Origin: Polyangia bacterium
GTDB lineage: Bacteria; Myxococcota_A; Polyangia; Fen-1088
DNA length: 64,000 nucleotides
Reading direction: 5' to 3'
Assembly (NCBI GenBank): GCA_036268875.1
Contig: DATATI010000020.1
Coordinates: forward strand, 186,001 to 250,000
In this document: piece after piece, positions 2,632 through 18,232 of the stretch
How the letters are laid out: each line of letters opens with the position of its first letter
Numbering within the stretch: the stretch's first letter is position 1
Notes under the pieces: generated by a model
The model's database searches: none
What the model was told of the DNA's origin: nothing
What the model saw: only the letters and a program-made list of their open reading frames with translations
Program-made: the position numbers and the translations under genes

Positions 2632-4005
2632 ATGGGCAGAATTCTGCTGTGCGATGACGAGGAATCTCTGTGCCGCAGCCTTGGGCGCATCCTCCGCGCG
2701 GCCGGGCACGAGGTGGTCACGGCTGATGGGCCAGGCGGACACGTGCGCCTGCGCCAGGAACCGTTCGATCTGATTCTCACCGACATTCGCATGCCGGGAT
2801 TCAGCGGCTTCGAGATCCTGGCGGCCGCCCGCTCGCACTCGCCGGGCACGCCGGTGATCGCCATGAGCGGCAGCGCCGAGATCCCCGACGCCGTTCGCGC
2901 CATGCACGCCGGCGCCCGCGATTTTTTGATCAAGCCGTTCGACGTCAAGGCGCTGGAAGAGGCGGTCGCCAACGTTTTGCGACCGGCGCCGCCGACCAGC
3001 CCGGCCGCCGATCCCGTCACCTGGCGTAACAAGCACGCGCCCTGGATGCTGGGCAACGACGCCGCGATGTTGCCGGTGCTGGCGCTGATGTCCCAGGTCG
3101 CCGACACCCGCTGCACGGTTTTGGTCACCGGCGAATCCGGCACCGGCAAGGAGCTGGCGGCGCGTTCGCTGCACGCCGGGTCGGCGCGCGCGGGAAAACC
3201 GTTCGTGCCGGTGAACTGCGCGGCGATCCCGCCGTCGCTGGTGGAAAGCGAACTGTTCGGTCACGCCAAAGGATCGTTCACCGGCGCGACGACCTCGCGC
3301 GTGGGGCGGTTTGCCCAGGCGGACGACGGAACCATCTTTCTCGACGAGATCGGCGAGATGGAGCTCGGCGTGCAGGCCAAGCTGCTGCGCTTGATCCAGG
3401 ACGGCGAGCTTTACCCCGTGGGCGAAGAGACCCCGACCAAGATCGACGTGCGCATCCTGGCCGCCACCAACCGCCAGCTGGAACGCGAGGTGGCCGCCGG
3501 ACGCTTTCGCGCCGACCTGTACTGGCGCCTGAACGTTATCCCGGTGGAGATGCCCAGCCTGCGCACGCGCGGGTCGGACATCATCCCGCTGGCCGAACAT
3601 TTCGTCGGGCGGGCCAACGAACGCCACAAGCGGAATGTGGGCGGTTTTGATCAAACGGCGCTGGGCGCCATGCGTACGTATTCGTGGCCGGGCAACATCC
3701 GCGAGCTGGAAAACGTCGTCGAGCGTCTGGTGATCGTCAAAGGCAGCGGCACATTGACGCTGGCCGATCTGCCGCCGGCCATCCGCAGCCCGCGCGACGT
3801 GACGCCGCTGTCGACGCCAATGCCCGAGCTGCCCAAGGACGGCACCGACCTGCGGGCCATGCTGGAGGCGGTGGAAGAGCGGATGATCGGCGAGGCGCTG
3901 GAGCGCACCGGCGGCAACAAGAACCGCGCCGCCGAGCTTTTGGGATTGAACCGCACCACCCTGGTTGAAAAGCTGCGCCGCAAACGCGTCTCGCCGCAGT
4001 TCTAG
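2632..4005 (+). CDS. NtrC-family sigma-54-dependent response regulator
   Basis: This is a 457-residue cytoplasmic transcription activator that uses ATP hydrolysis to open sigma-54 promoters. The receiver (1-118) keeps acidic D8/D9, phospho-acceptor D51, S79 and K101. The AAA+ domain has Walker A GESGTGKE (167-174), the sigma-54 contact loop GSFTGA (214-219; canonical GAFTGA, so A to S), Walker B FLDEIGEM (236-243) and the WPGNIRELEN segment (352-361). A Fis-type helix-turn-helix occupies about 425-450. An AAGGACTGGGA stretch precedes the ATG. No histidine kinase gene adjoins it, so it is an orphan regulator in this window. Its targets are unknown. Confidence 0.95.
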   Translation: MGRILLCDDEESLCRSLGRILRAAGHEVVTADGPGGHVRLRQEPFDLILTDIRMPGFSGFEILAAARSHSPGTPVIAMSGSAEIPDAVRAMHAGARDFLIKPFDVKALEEAVANVLRPAPPTSPAADPVTWRNKHAPWMLGNDAAMLPVLALMSQVADTRCTVLVTGESGTGKELAARSLHAGSARAGKPFVPVNCAAIPPSLVESELFGHAKGSFTGATTSRVGRFAQADDGTIFLDEIGEMELGVQAKLLRLIQDGELYPVGEETPTKIDVRILAATNRQLEREVAAGRFRADLYWRLNVIPVEMPSLRTRGSDIIPLAEHFVGRANERHKRNVGGFDQTALGAMRTYSWPGNIRELENVVERLVIVKGSGTLTLADLPPAIRSPRDVTPLSTPMPELPKDGTDLRAMLEAVEERMIGEALERTGGNKNRAAELLGLNRTTLVEKLRRKRVSPQF

Positions 4006-4216
4006 CGAACAATTGCCGAAGCAGCCCGAACCCGCTCGGACGTCTTCCTTGACGGTGGACCAAGCGGCGACTTCGTAGTGCCGTAACGGAGGAACGCATC
4101 CACTTCCGCGCTTTCACCGACCACAACCCAAGCGGCCAGTGTCGGCTGCGGAGCGGCCAATGTGAAGATCGACAAAATGTTTCTTACGCCCGCGCCCGGA
4201 ACATACTGAACCAATC
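4006..4216. other. Convergent gap, no gene recognised
   Basis: This 211-bp gap lies between the 3' ends of the sigma-54 activator and the PEBP lipoprotein. An open frame crosses it on the minus strand but shows no recognisable domain or start signal. I see no hairpin with a T-run. Confidence 0.4.
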
Positions 4217-5038
4217 TTACTGACGAGTCTGAGTGACCTGTAGAGTCGCTCGGCCATTCTGCACCATGTTGCTTTGAATCGCAGAATAGACGGTCTCGGG
4301 ATCGGACTGAGGCGTCAGGTTTGGGATTGTGGTCACTTTCAGAGCATAGACGGCAAAGAGATAACTCTGCTGCGCACCGGCGGCTTGAGGACACGGTCCT
4401 TGGTATCCGTTACCAGTGAAACCGTCCAGATTGTTAAGGTGAACTTGTTTAGCCCCTGCCGGTGTTGCCGGCATCGCGACGTGGTCGAGGTTAACCGGAA
4501 GTGACATGACCGACGCAGGGATGTCCCACATGAGCCAATGCTTGGCCGTGTCGCTCGCGCCCTGATGGATCAACGTCATCGCGTAGCTCATAATGCCGGG
4601 CGGGCCTGGCGTCCAGGCGAGCGGGGGCGAGATGTTCATCCCCATCGGGAGATTGCCGGCCTGGGCGCACTTGTACATCAGCGGGATGTTCATCCCGGTG
4701 GTGAAAGCGGTGCTCGTCAATGCGAACGGTCCGGCGGGAACGTCGGGCGCGACCTCGACCGGGGCGTCGAGCGAGCCGACGTCAGTCGCGGCGTCGACGC
4801 TGCCTCCGGTACCAGCAGCGCTGCCACCGGTGCCGGTTTCACCGCCGCTCCCGTGACTGCCCCCGGTGCCGATGCTGCCGCCGCTGCCCGTGGTCGCGCC
4901 ACCCGTGCCGGTGGCGCCTCCTGAACCTGTGACGGTCGCCCCGCCGGTGCCCGAGGATCCGCCGCCGCTGCCACAGCCAAGCGCCAGCAACGGCACCAGG
5001 AAAATCGACAACGGCCGGGAAAAATCGATCGGCCTCAT
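4217..5038 (-). CDS. PEBP-family (YbhB/YbcL, Raf kinase inhibitor-like) lipoprotein
   Basis: This is a secreted lipoprotein of 273 residues from the ATG at 5038. That start is preferred because it places a short basic N-terminus and hydrophobic core directly before the lipobox LALGC; a start 12 codons further upstream is possible. After the Cys comes a tether of about 65 residues made almost only of Gly, Ser, Thr and Ala (repeats of the GTGG/GSGG type), typical of myxobacterial surface lipoproteins. The last 160 residues match the phosphatidylethanolamine-binding-protein family: NISPPLAWTP, KHWLMWDIP and the late GNGYQGPCPQ motif that lines the ligand pocket. The family ligand in bacteria is generally not known. 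It is a single gene. Confidence 0.88.
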   Translation of the reverse strand: MRPIDFSRPLSIFLVPLLALGCGSGGGSSGTGGATVTGSGGATGTGGATTGSGGSIGTGGSHGSGGETGTGGSAAGTGGSVDAATDVGSLDAPVEVAPDVPAGPFALTSTAFTTGMNIPLMYKCAQAGNLPMGMNISPPLAWTPGPPGIMSYAMTLIHQGASDTAKHWLMWDIPASVMSLPVNLDHVAMPATPAGAKQVHLNNLDGFTGNGYQGPCPQAAGAQQSYLFAVYALKVTTIPNLTPQSDPETVYSAIQSNMVQNGRATLQVTQTRQ

Positions 5039-5136
5039 GACCCCGTTATCACCGGAAGGCACGAATGAAGTCAACCGCGGCCCACGGCAAGCGCGGGTCG
5101 CGGCTACCAGCCATCAGCCGATCAGGTCAGGCGCGC

Positions 5137-6333
5137 TCAGGTCAAACGCGGCAGCGCTTCGGCCATGCGGCGGATGCCCTCTTCGACGTTCTTCATCGAC
5201 GTCGCGTAGGACAGCCGCACATAACCAGGCGCATGGAAGGCCGAGCCCGGCACCACCGCCACCTTGGCCGCTTCGATCAAGTACTCGCACAGGGCCAGAT
5301 CGTTTTCGATGGTCTTGCCCTCGGGCGTCTTGCGTCCGATGAACGCCGACAGATCGGGGAAGGCGTAGAACGCGCCTTTCGGTTCGACGCATTTGACGCC
5401 CGGGATCTCGCGCAGGCGGGCGACCATCACCTTGCGGCGCTTGTCGAACTCGACCCGCATTTTCTCCAGTTCGTCGGTCGGTCCTTCGATGGCGGCCTGG
5501 GCGGCGGCTTGCGCGACCGCAGCGGCGTGGGTAGTCGACTGGCCTTGCAGCGTGGCCATCGCTTCGATCACCGGCTTCGGGGCCATGGTGAAACCGACGC
5601 GCCAGCCGGTCATGGCGAACGCCTTGGACACGCCGTCGATGATGATGGTGTGGGCGCGGACCTCGGGGCTGATCGTCGCGGGCTGGAAGAACGTGGCGTC
5701 TCCGTACAGCAACGTGCGGTAGATGTCGTCGGTCATCAGCCAGACGTCTTTGTCGACGGCCAGCTTGGCCAGCCCGCGCAGCGTCGCCTCGTCGTACACC
5801 GCGCCGGTCGGGTTCGACGGCGAGCAGACCAGGATCAAGCGCGTGCGCGGCGTGATCGCCTTCTCGACGTCCTCGACGCGCACCTGGAAGTTGCTCTCGG
5901 CCGAGGTCGGCACGTTGACCGGACGGCCGCCGGCCAGCTTGACGATGTCGTTGTAGCTGACCCACGCCGGCGTCGGAATGATCACCTCGTCGCCCTCGTC
6001 GACCAGCGCGTGGACGGCGTTGAAGATGGATTGCTTGGCGCCAGAGCTGACGATGATCTCGCTGGGATCGATGGTCAATCCGTGGGCTTTGCCCAGCCAG
6101 GTCGCCACCGCCTTGCGCAGCGGCACGGTGCCTTCGACCAGCGTGTACTTGGTGGCGCCGGCGTCCAAGGCCTTTTTCGCCGCCTCCTTGATGTGCACCG
6201 GCGTGTCGAAGTCGGGCTCGCCCGCGCCGAAGCTGACGACGTCGATGCCGGCGGCCTTCAGCTTGGCGGCCTTGGCGGACACGGCCAGCGTTGGAGACGG
6301 TTCAACCACAGAAAGTCTACGCGCAAGCTTCAC
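5137..6333 (-). CDS. Class I PLP-dependent aminotransferase (aspartate/prephenate type)
   Basis: This is a 398-residue fold-type I aminotransferase of the AspB/AAT-Ib group, which moves amino groups between amino acids such as aspartate or prephenate and 2-oxo acids. Family features are SPSNPTGAVY (171-180), the TDDIYRTL segment (201-208), the PLP lysine K237 in SKAFAMTGWRVG and a C-terminal YVRLSYA with the carboxylate-binding Arg. The start is GTG at 6333, which overlaps the coaD stop by 4 bp (GTGA) and has an AAAGGAG ribosome site inside the end of coaD, so translation is probably coupled. The exact substrate cannot be fixed from sequence. It is the last gene of rsmD-coaD-aminotransferase. 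Confidence 0.93.
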   Translation of the reverse strand: MKLARRLSVVEPSPTLAVSAKAAKLKAAGIDVVSFGAGEPDFDTPVHIKEAAKKALDAGATKYTLVEGTVPLRKAVATWLGKAHGLTIDPSEIIVSSGAKQSIFNAVHALVDEGDEVIIPTPAWVSYNDIVKLAGGRPVNVPTSAESNFQVRVEDVEKAITPRTRLILVCSPSNPTGAVYDEATLRGLAKLAVDKDVWLMTDDIYRTLLYGDATFFQPATISPEVRAHTIIIDGVSKAFAMTGWRVGFTMAPKPVIEAMATLQGQSTTHAAAVAQAAAQAAIEGPTDELEKMRVEFDKRRKVMVARLREIPGVKCVEPKGAFYAFPDLSAFIGRKTPEGKTIENDLALCEYLIEAAKVAVVPGSAFHAPGYVRLSYATSMKNVEEGIRRMAEALPRLT

Positions 6334-16981: not shown

Positions 16982-18199
16982 TCAGCCCTTCCCCACGTCC
17001 AGCGCGCGCCACAGATACCAGCTGGCCACCGAACGGTACGGCTTCCAGCGCGCGCCGTGTTTTTGCAGCTGCTCGCGCGTCGGCAGCGCGCGCTTCTTGA
17101 AAGCGACGGCATAACCCTTGCGCACGCCATAGTCGTCAGCGGGCAACACGTCCGGGCGGCCCAGGCGAAACATCAGCAGCATCTCGGCGGTCCAGCGGCC
17201 GATCCCGCGCACGCCGGTCAGGCTTTCGATGATCGCCTCGTCGTCCATCTGGTGCACGTCGTCCAGCGTGGGCAGCGCGCCGTCTTTCGTGCGATGGGCC
17301 AGATCGCGCAGCGACAGCAGCTTGGAACGCGACAGGCCGGCGCCGCGCAATTTCTCGTCTGAGGCGCGCAGGATCTGCTGCGGCGTCGGACCTTCGTGCA
17401 CGCGCGGAAACAACGCCCGCACCCGCGCGTAGATGGTCGCCGCCGCCTTGCCGGACAGTTGCTGGTAGACGATCGCTTGCGCCAGGGCAGCGAAGATGCT
17501 GGCGGTGTGATCGCGCTGCATGGCGAACGGCCCGACCCGGTCGATGAGGCGCCCCAAGCTCGGATCGGCGGCGCGCAGGTGAGTCACTGCGGCGACGGTG
17601 TCGAAGGCGAACGGAGGCGGCGGTTCGGCCAAGACAATCGGCCCGCCGGCGACGCCGGTGCTTTTGCCGCGGGCGGCGTGCGCCGATTCGATGGCCAGCA
17701 TGCGCAGCTTGGTGGTGATGCCGCCGGCGGCGGAAAATCCGCCCACTTTTCCGCCGGCCGCCAGCACGCGGTGGCAAGGCACGACGACGGCGAACGGGTT
17801 GCGACCCAGGGCCTGCCCCACCGCCCGCGACCCACCCGGCGAACCGGCCTGGGCGGCGATCGCGCCGTACGAGACGGTGGTCCCCGGCGGCAACGCGCGC
17901 GCCGCCTGGTAGACCCGTCGGTGAAACGGCGGCACGGCATCCATGTCAAGGACGATGGCCGACAGATCGCTCCGCTCGCCGCCCAACAAGGCGGCGATGC
18001 GATCGATCGCTACCTTCACCGCGACAGGCGGCAGCGCCTCTTTCGTGTCGGGAAATCGCTGCTGCATCCGGGCCCGCGTCGCCGACTCGCGCCCCTCGGG
18101 CAGGTTCACACCGACGATGCCGCGCGCCCCCCAGGCGATGGCGCAACGACCGATCGCCGTATCGAACAACGCGAAGCCATCCTTGTTCACGGCGCGCAA
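16982..18199 (-). CDS. Ogt-AlkA fusion: O6-alkylguanine alkyltransferase + 3-methyladenine glycosylase II
   Basis: This is a single 405-residue reading frame with two DNA-alkylation repair activities. Residues 1-175 are an Ogt/MGMT domain: GTTVSYGAIAAQAGSPGGSRAVG, then the active-site VVPCHRV (acceptor C142) and GGFSAAGG. Residues 195-405 are an AlkA-type HhH-GPD glycosylase: QAIVYQQLSGKAA, the helix-hairpin-helix LTGVRGIGRWTAEM (327-340), the catalytic Asp in LPADDYGVRKG (D356) and a C-terminal RWKPYRSVASWYLW. A linker of about 25 residues joins them. All catalytic residues are present, so both halves should be active. The start lies 33 bp from that of the divergent prmC. Confidence 0.94.
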   Translation of the reverse strand: MRAVNKDGFALFDTAIGRCAIAWGARGIVGVNLPEGRESATRARMQQRFPDTKEALPPVAVKVAIDRIAALLGGERSDLSAIVLDMDAVPPFHRRVYQAARALPPGTTVSYGAIAAQAGSPGGSRAVGQALGRNPFAVVVPCHRVLAAGGKVGGFSAAGGITTKLRMLAIESAHAARGKSTGVAGGPIVLAEPPPPFAFDTVAAVTHLRAADPSLGRLIDRVGPFAMQRDHTASIFAALAQAIVYQQLSGKAAATIYARVRALFPRVHEGPTPQQILRASDEKLRGAGLSRSKLLSLRDLAHRTKDGALPTLDDVHQMDDEAIIESLTGVRGIGRWTAEMLLMFRLGRPDVLPADDYGVRKGYAVAFKKRALPTREQLQKHGARWKPYRSVASWYLWRALDVGKG

Positions 18200-18232
18200 A
18201 TGCTAGCACTCCTTGTGTAGACTGACCGACAC

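Follow-up and report, generated by a model that had tools for sequence, protein, structure and literature searches.

Two kinds of protein that combine parts of alkylation repair, Ada-Ogt and AdaA-AlkA fusions, are established (PMC1839093). A further arrangement, AGTendoV of Ferroplasma acidarmanus, joins an alkyltransferase to endonuclease V, and both activities are reported (PMC10779285, citing Kanugula et al. 2005). A limited search of the open-access literature yielded no description of an alkyltransferase paired with an HhH-GPD glycosylase. The parts and the idea of fusing them are known, and the pairing of Ogt with a Mag1-type glycosylase is new as far as the open-access papers searched tell. 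Such a pairing is encoded in the window, by which we mean the whole 64,000-nucleotide stretch of Polyangia DNA that was analysed.

One reading frame with two intact repair domains

The frame (16982-18199, minus strand) comprises 405 codons with zero internal stops. Its features are given below in window coordinates.

16982..18199, minus strand: gene for the Ogt-AlkA2 (Mag1-type) fusion protein, 405 aa, TTG start
18209..18214, minus strand: AAGGAG ribosome-binding site, recognized by sequence, 9 nt upstream of the TTG start at 18199
17672..18175, minus strand: alkyltransferase half, residues 9-176 (Pfam 91-172; residues 9-90 by phmmer to the Ada/Ogt N-terminal subdomain)
17762..17779, minus strand: PCHRV active site, residues 141-145, with the acceptor cysteine C142 at 17774-17776
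17594..17671, minus strand: linker, residues 177-202, with low model confidence at 180-192 and a length that differs among relatives
17000..17593, minus strand: HhH-GPD glycosylase half of Mag1/AlkA2 type, residues 203-400 (Pfam, sequence and fold matches)
17174..17215, minus strand: helix-hairpin-helix (HhH) motif, residues 329-342, sequence GVRGIGRWTAEMLL
17132..17134, minus strand: D356, the catalytic aspartate, in PADD, aligned to residue 170 of Mag1 (3s6i)

The N-terminal half matches PF01035 over residues 91-172 (2.4e-28; 98.2 bits against a curated Pfam cut-off of 27), and residues 9-174 can be aligned to Ada and Ogt, with an N-terminal subdomain too diverged for its own Pfam model. The Ogt/AGT residue set is present (Y111, R125, N134, C142, H143, R144 and E171); a tryptophan instead of the acceptor cysteine would mark an ATL. 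On both family score and residues, this half is the intact O6-alkylguanine alkyltransferase with C142 in PCHRV that a preliminary description had proposed. The C-terminal half matches PF00730 (HhH-GPD) over residues 242-385 (6.9e-14; 52.5 bits against a curated Pfam cut-off of 26.2). Pfam searches of the fusion protein gave no match to the Ada zinc-binding domain PF02805 or the AraC-type HTH PF12833, nor to AlkA_N (PF06029), which the AdaA-AlkA protein of the same genome does match.

By sequence, the best solved relative of the glycosylase half is Schizosaccharomyces pombe Mag1 (3s6i, 1.4e-38), followed by a Bacillus halodurans glycosylase, S. pombe Mag2 and Deinococcus AlkA; the alkyltransferase half matches Ada (1sfe, 1.8e-20). 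A structure model built from 35 sequences has a mean pLDDT of 80.5, with values above 90 over most of the glycosylase half and below 50 in the linker at 180-192. Its pTM is 0.55 and the alkyltransferase half is weaker, so the relative placement of the domains is not fixed by the model. The top Foldseek match is again 3s6i (TM 0.84 by target length, 2.3 Å, 37% identity), and the alkyltransferase half matches Ada 1sfe with a TM of 0.66. Because AlkA_N is missing and both the sequence and the predicted fold agree best with 3s6i, the glycosylase half is assigned to the Mag1/AlkA2 kind and not to E. coli AlkA proper. The label AlkA-type used previously thus stands as regards an intact HhH-GPD domain with D356, and is better narrowed to Mag1/AlkA2. 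The HhH motif is likewise present as described, two residues downstream of the proposed 327-340, and the linker of about 25 residues agrees with the low-confidence segment at 177-202.

Conservation was assessed in a set of 54 fused frames, some of which are one gene retrieved by two routes. Residues Y111, N134, P141, C142, R144, K164 and E171 of the alkyltransferase half and W336 and D356 of the glycosylase half occur in 54 of 54 frames, and D356 is also invariant in the 35-sequence alignment. Q246-Q247 is missing solely in two cut-back relatives described below, and R125 and H143 are substituted once each. In close pairs dN is smaller than dS in both halves, as judged by a simple counting method that on GC-rich codons serves as a rough guide. 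The two single substitutions are R125Q in one fusion (L129:1202-2509, minus strand) and H143Q, giving PCQRV, in another (L130:1498-3480, minus strand).

A frameshift or overlooked stop between the halves is ruled out by the single uninterrupted frame, in keeping with the preliminary description. An assembly chimera is ruled out by one-frame relatives, about 66-68% identical over both halves, whose chromosomes are complete or nearly so. The proposal that a single protein holds two intact repair domains is borne out by family, structure and residue evidence alike, and these data show an intact, conserved, two-domain protein in which both active sites are present.

Distribution and history of the fusion

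Among 318 sampled Polyangia genomes, at least 50, the window's own among them, show a single match over both halves; the 50 were counted by hand from the search table. Further matches in two pieces prove to be one frame when inspected (L008, L013, L026, L150 and L151). Four of the 50 rows flag a stop inside the stretch, and the two inspected, G280 and G266, are open through both halves. Carriers include complete Sorangium-group chromosomes, among them that of Sorangium cellulosum So0157-2 (L023, 67% identical). The fusion is therefore common in the class and not peculiar to the window's genome. Elsewhere in the phylum, matches over both halves occur in G825 and G789 (63%) and in G920 (37%).

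The two parts are encoded separately in some genomes of the class (G264 and G231). G517 and G440, which appear fused in the search table, were rejected because stop codons separate the parts. Upstream of the match in single glycosylases of the class, we found no leftover alkyltransferase tail of the sort that would mark a split fusion. Plasmid sampling returned 97 records with one half and none with both, and none covers 80% of the query. The arrangement had been called uncommon, which fits the sampled bacteria as a whole, as judged by the matches elsewhere in the phylum and these plasmid records, but not this class. As to whether it is both widespread and already characterised, the former is true within the class; the open-access literature, as noted above, holds no description that we found.

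In two trees, both halves of the window protein group among Sorangium-group fusions, a like placement that is expected if the halves travel together. A single clade made up of the class's fused rows is rejected for the alkyltransferase half (p-AU 0.016) and for the glycosylase half (4e-5), and single genes are nested among fused ones in both trees. The join has therefore been broken or made more than once, and a single origin of all class fusions as a clade is rejected by a test to which splitting and repeated joining look the same.

These free trees suggest, and do not establish, lateral entry into the window's genome. The specific proposal that the gene was acquired from a Sorangium-like relative falls somewhat short of an even chance in our judgement. 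For each half, the closest rows are Sorangium-group fusions (family group f11; 67-72% identical), the full fusion is missing from most of the window's own family, and the 63% identical fusion in G825 and G789 lies in another class. However, a tree constrained to unite the window protein with the cut-back fusions of its own family scored higher and is not rejected (p-AU 0.63).

Fusions are also found in more distant bacteria, in both orders. Among Oscillospiraceae, one single frame places Ogt first and then the glycosylase (L044), and two others encode glycosylase-Ogt proteins of 386 and 383 aa (L192 and L193, respectively). In the Tidjanibacter family, 8 of 200 genomes encode a glycosylase-Ogt fusion. 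Because the halves of all these proteins are placed apart from the class halves in both trees, their fusions look independent of those in the class.

Several Oscillospiraceae carry the two genes side by side. In one case, adjoining genes overlap by 4 nt (L194, plus strand, 425-982 and 979-1596); in another, Ogt and glycosylase genes overlap in the opposite order (L195:478-1634, minus strand); and in a third, the two genes are in frame with a lone TAA between them (L173:1447-2610, minus strand). Such adjacent, overlapping or one-stop gene pairs are likely precursors of a fusion, and the last arrangement possibly represents the state just before or just after one. Separately, on a Verrucomicrobia contig (L034), an Ogt frame and a single Mag1-type glycosylase lie on opposite strands (3259-4269, minus strand, and 5001-5600, plus strand) with about 0.7 kb between them.

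Proposed function and competing readings

We propose, with a probability of roughly 0.8, that the sequence and the structure model describe a stand-alone bifunctional DNA alkylation repair protein. In this reading, the N-terminal half would act as a suicide alkyltransferase that flips out O6-alkylguanine (or O4-alkylthymine) and accepts its alkyl group on C142, a reaction that each molecule can carry out a single time. The second half would be a monofunctional glycosylase of Mag1/AlkA2 type, in which the HhH motif grips the DNA backbone while D356 aids in cutting the N-glycosidic bond that holds 3-methyladenine or a related N-alkylpurine; the resulting abasic site would then pass to base excision repair. 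A single chain would thereby bring direct reversal and base excision, at a ratio of 1:1, to the mixture of lesions that arises from one methylating agent. The intact frame, both domains, the active-site residues, the predicted Mag1-like fold of the glycosylase half, the retention of the fusion across the class and the fusions of both orders elsewhere are observations, whereas the two activities, the substrate range, the independence of the fusions and any advantage of joining the halves are inferred.

The window neighbours are unrelated to the fusion gene, which stands alone with no regulator of its own: its stop lies 6 bp from the end of an amino-acid permease gene, and its start 33 bp from the divergent prmC. 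On another contig of the same genome (G000 contig C74), an AdaA-AlkA gene (L152:1281-2900, plus strand) is followed by an overlapping Ogt gene (L002:1261-1821, plus strand). The former encodes an Ada zinc domain, an HTH, AlkA_N and a weak HhH-GPD domain, and the latter encodes both Ogt subdomains. This pair looks like an inducible adaptive-response system. Given the missing regulator and the separate, apparently inducible pair, constitutive expression of the fusion gene is probable, and it would then serve as an extra constitutive copy of both activities.

That the protein couples reversal of O6-alkylguanine with removal of 3-methyladenine is plausible and is favoured by the apparently repeated fusion in both orders, which points to a benefit from coupling direct reversal with base excision of alkyl damage. 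The fusion may also be neutral, as separated parts and nested single genes indicate that the join is not essential. According to a mainly neutral or dosage-based explanation, which comes close to an even chance, neighbouring genes simply lost a stop, and the halves work as if alone, in equal amounts and with no mechanistic coupling. The Oscillospiraceae series is what this would produce: the two genes occur next to each other in either order, overlapping by 4 nt, parted by a single in-frame stop or fully fused in both orders; the nesting of single genes and the rejection of strict single-origin inheritance (p-AU 0.016 and 4e-5) agree with it as well. However, although the linker has diverged, at least nine family groups of the class retain the joined state, and neutral joining alone explains the recurrence of both orders less well.

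A different division of labour is raised by two same-family fusions (L012:216-1196, minus strand, and L015:1027-2418, plus strand) that have lost about 86 glycosylase residues (230-315) in frame. In both, the alkyltransferase is followed by the linker and the opening helices of the glycosylase, and the sequence resumes ahead of the HhH motif, so that this motif, D356 and the C-terminal helices are retained. About a third of the glycosylase half is gone, and Pfam no longer detects HhH-GPD. The gap is common to two genomes 68-76% alike, and an assembly error is therefore unlikely. In the window model, residues 230-315 comprise helices 235-245, 250-262, 273-278, 281-286 and 291-305, including the invariant QQ, and form one block of the two-part HhH-GPD fold. 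Because the pocket of HhH-GPD enzymes sits between the two parts of the fold, loss of excision is expected, and base excision has probably been lost in these two proteins.

From these relatives it might be argued that the glycosylase half partly helps the alkyltransferase to bind DNA (or that the help runs the other way), with base excision secondary. What the cut-back proteins keep fits this idea, and their remnant is still constrained: a crude method applied to one pair gives it a dN of 0.136 and a dS of 0.371, compared with 0.251 and 0.479 in the alkyltransferase half. However, the whole glycosylase, including QQ and D356, is retained in the window protein and in almost every other fusion, and we regard the idea as quite improbable for the protein at hand. 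It is also unlikely, if slightly less so, that the join was selected several times because a single DNA scan would serve both lesion classes, and that the glycosylase of one genus was then reduced to a DNA-binding remnant serving the alkyltransferase.

If both halves work, as the bifunctional reading holds, one chain would unite a suicide protein that acts once with an enzyme that turns over many times, which raises the question of the fate of the glycosylase after the alkyltransferase is spent. The likely Oscillospiraceae precursors offer a natural series for testing the benefit of coupling.

Comparison with known repair proteins

The glycosylase half resembles S. pombe Mag1 and bacterial AlkA2 (PDB 3s6i, 2h56 and 2yg8) in fold, length, HhH motif, the correspondence of D356 to Mag1 D170 and the lack of AlkA_N. 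Those proteins are single-domain, whereas the window protein has an alkyltransferase ahead of the glycosylase. E. coli AlkA proper differs in carrying AlkA_N before HhH-GPD. The alkyltransferase half shares PCHRV, R125, N134, Y111, E171 and fold with the C-terminal alkyltransferases of Ogt and Ada (PDB 1sfe and 4wxc), which, unlike the window protein, are single or tied to the Ada regulatory domain. Ada and AdaA-AlkA, the latter also encoded elsewhere in the window's genome, likewise join parts of alkylation repair. In contrast to them, the window protein has neither an Ada zinc-binding nor an AraC-type domain, and two repair enzymes are joined to each other. AGTendoV also links an alkyltransferase to a base-repair enzyme, the partner being endonuclease V there and an HhH-GPD glycosylase here.
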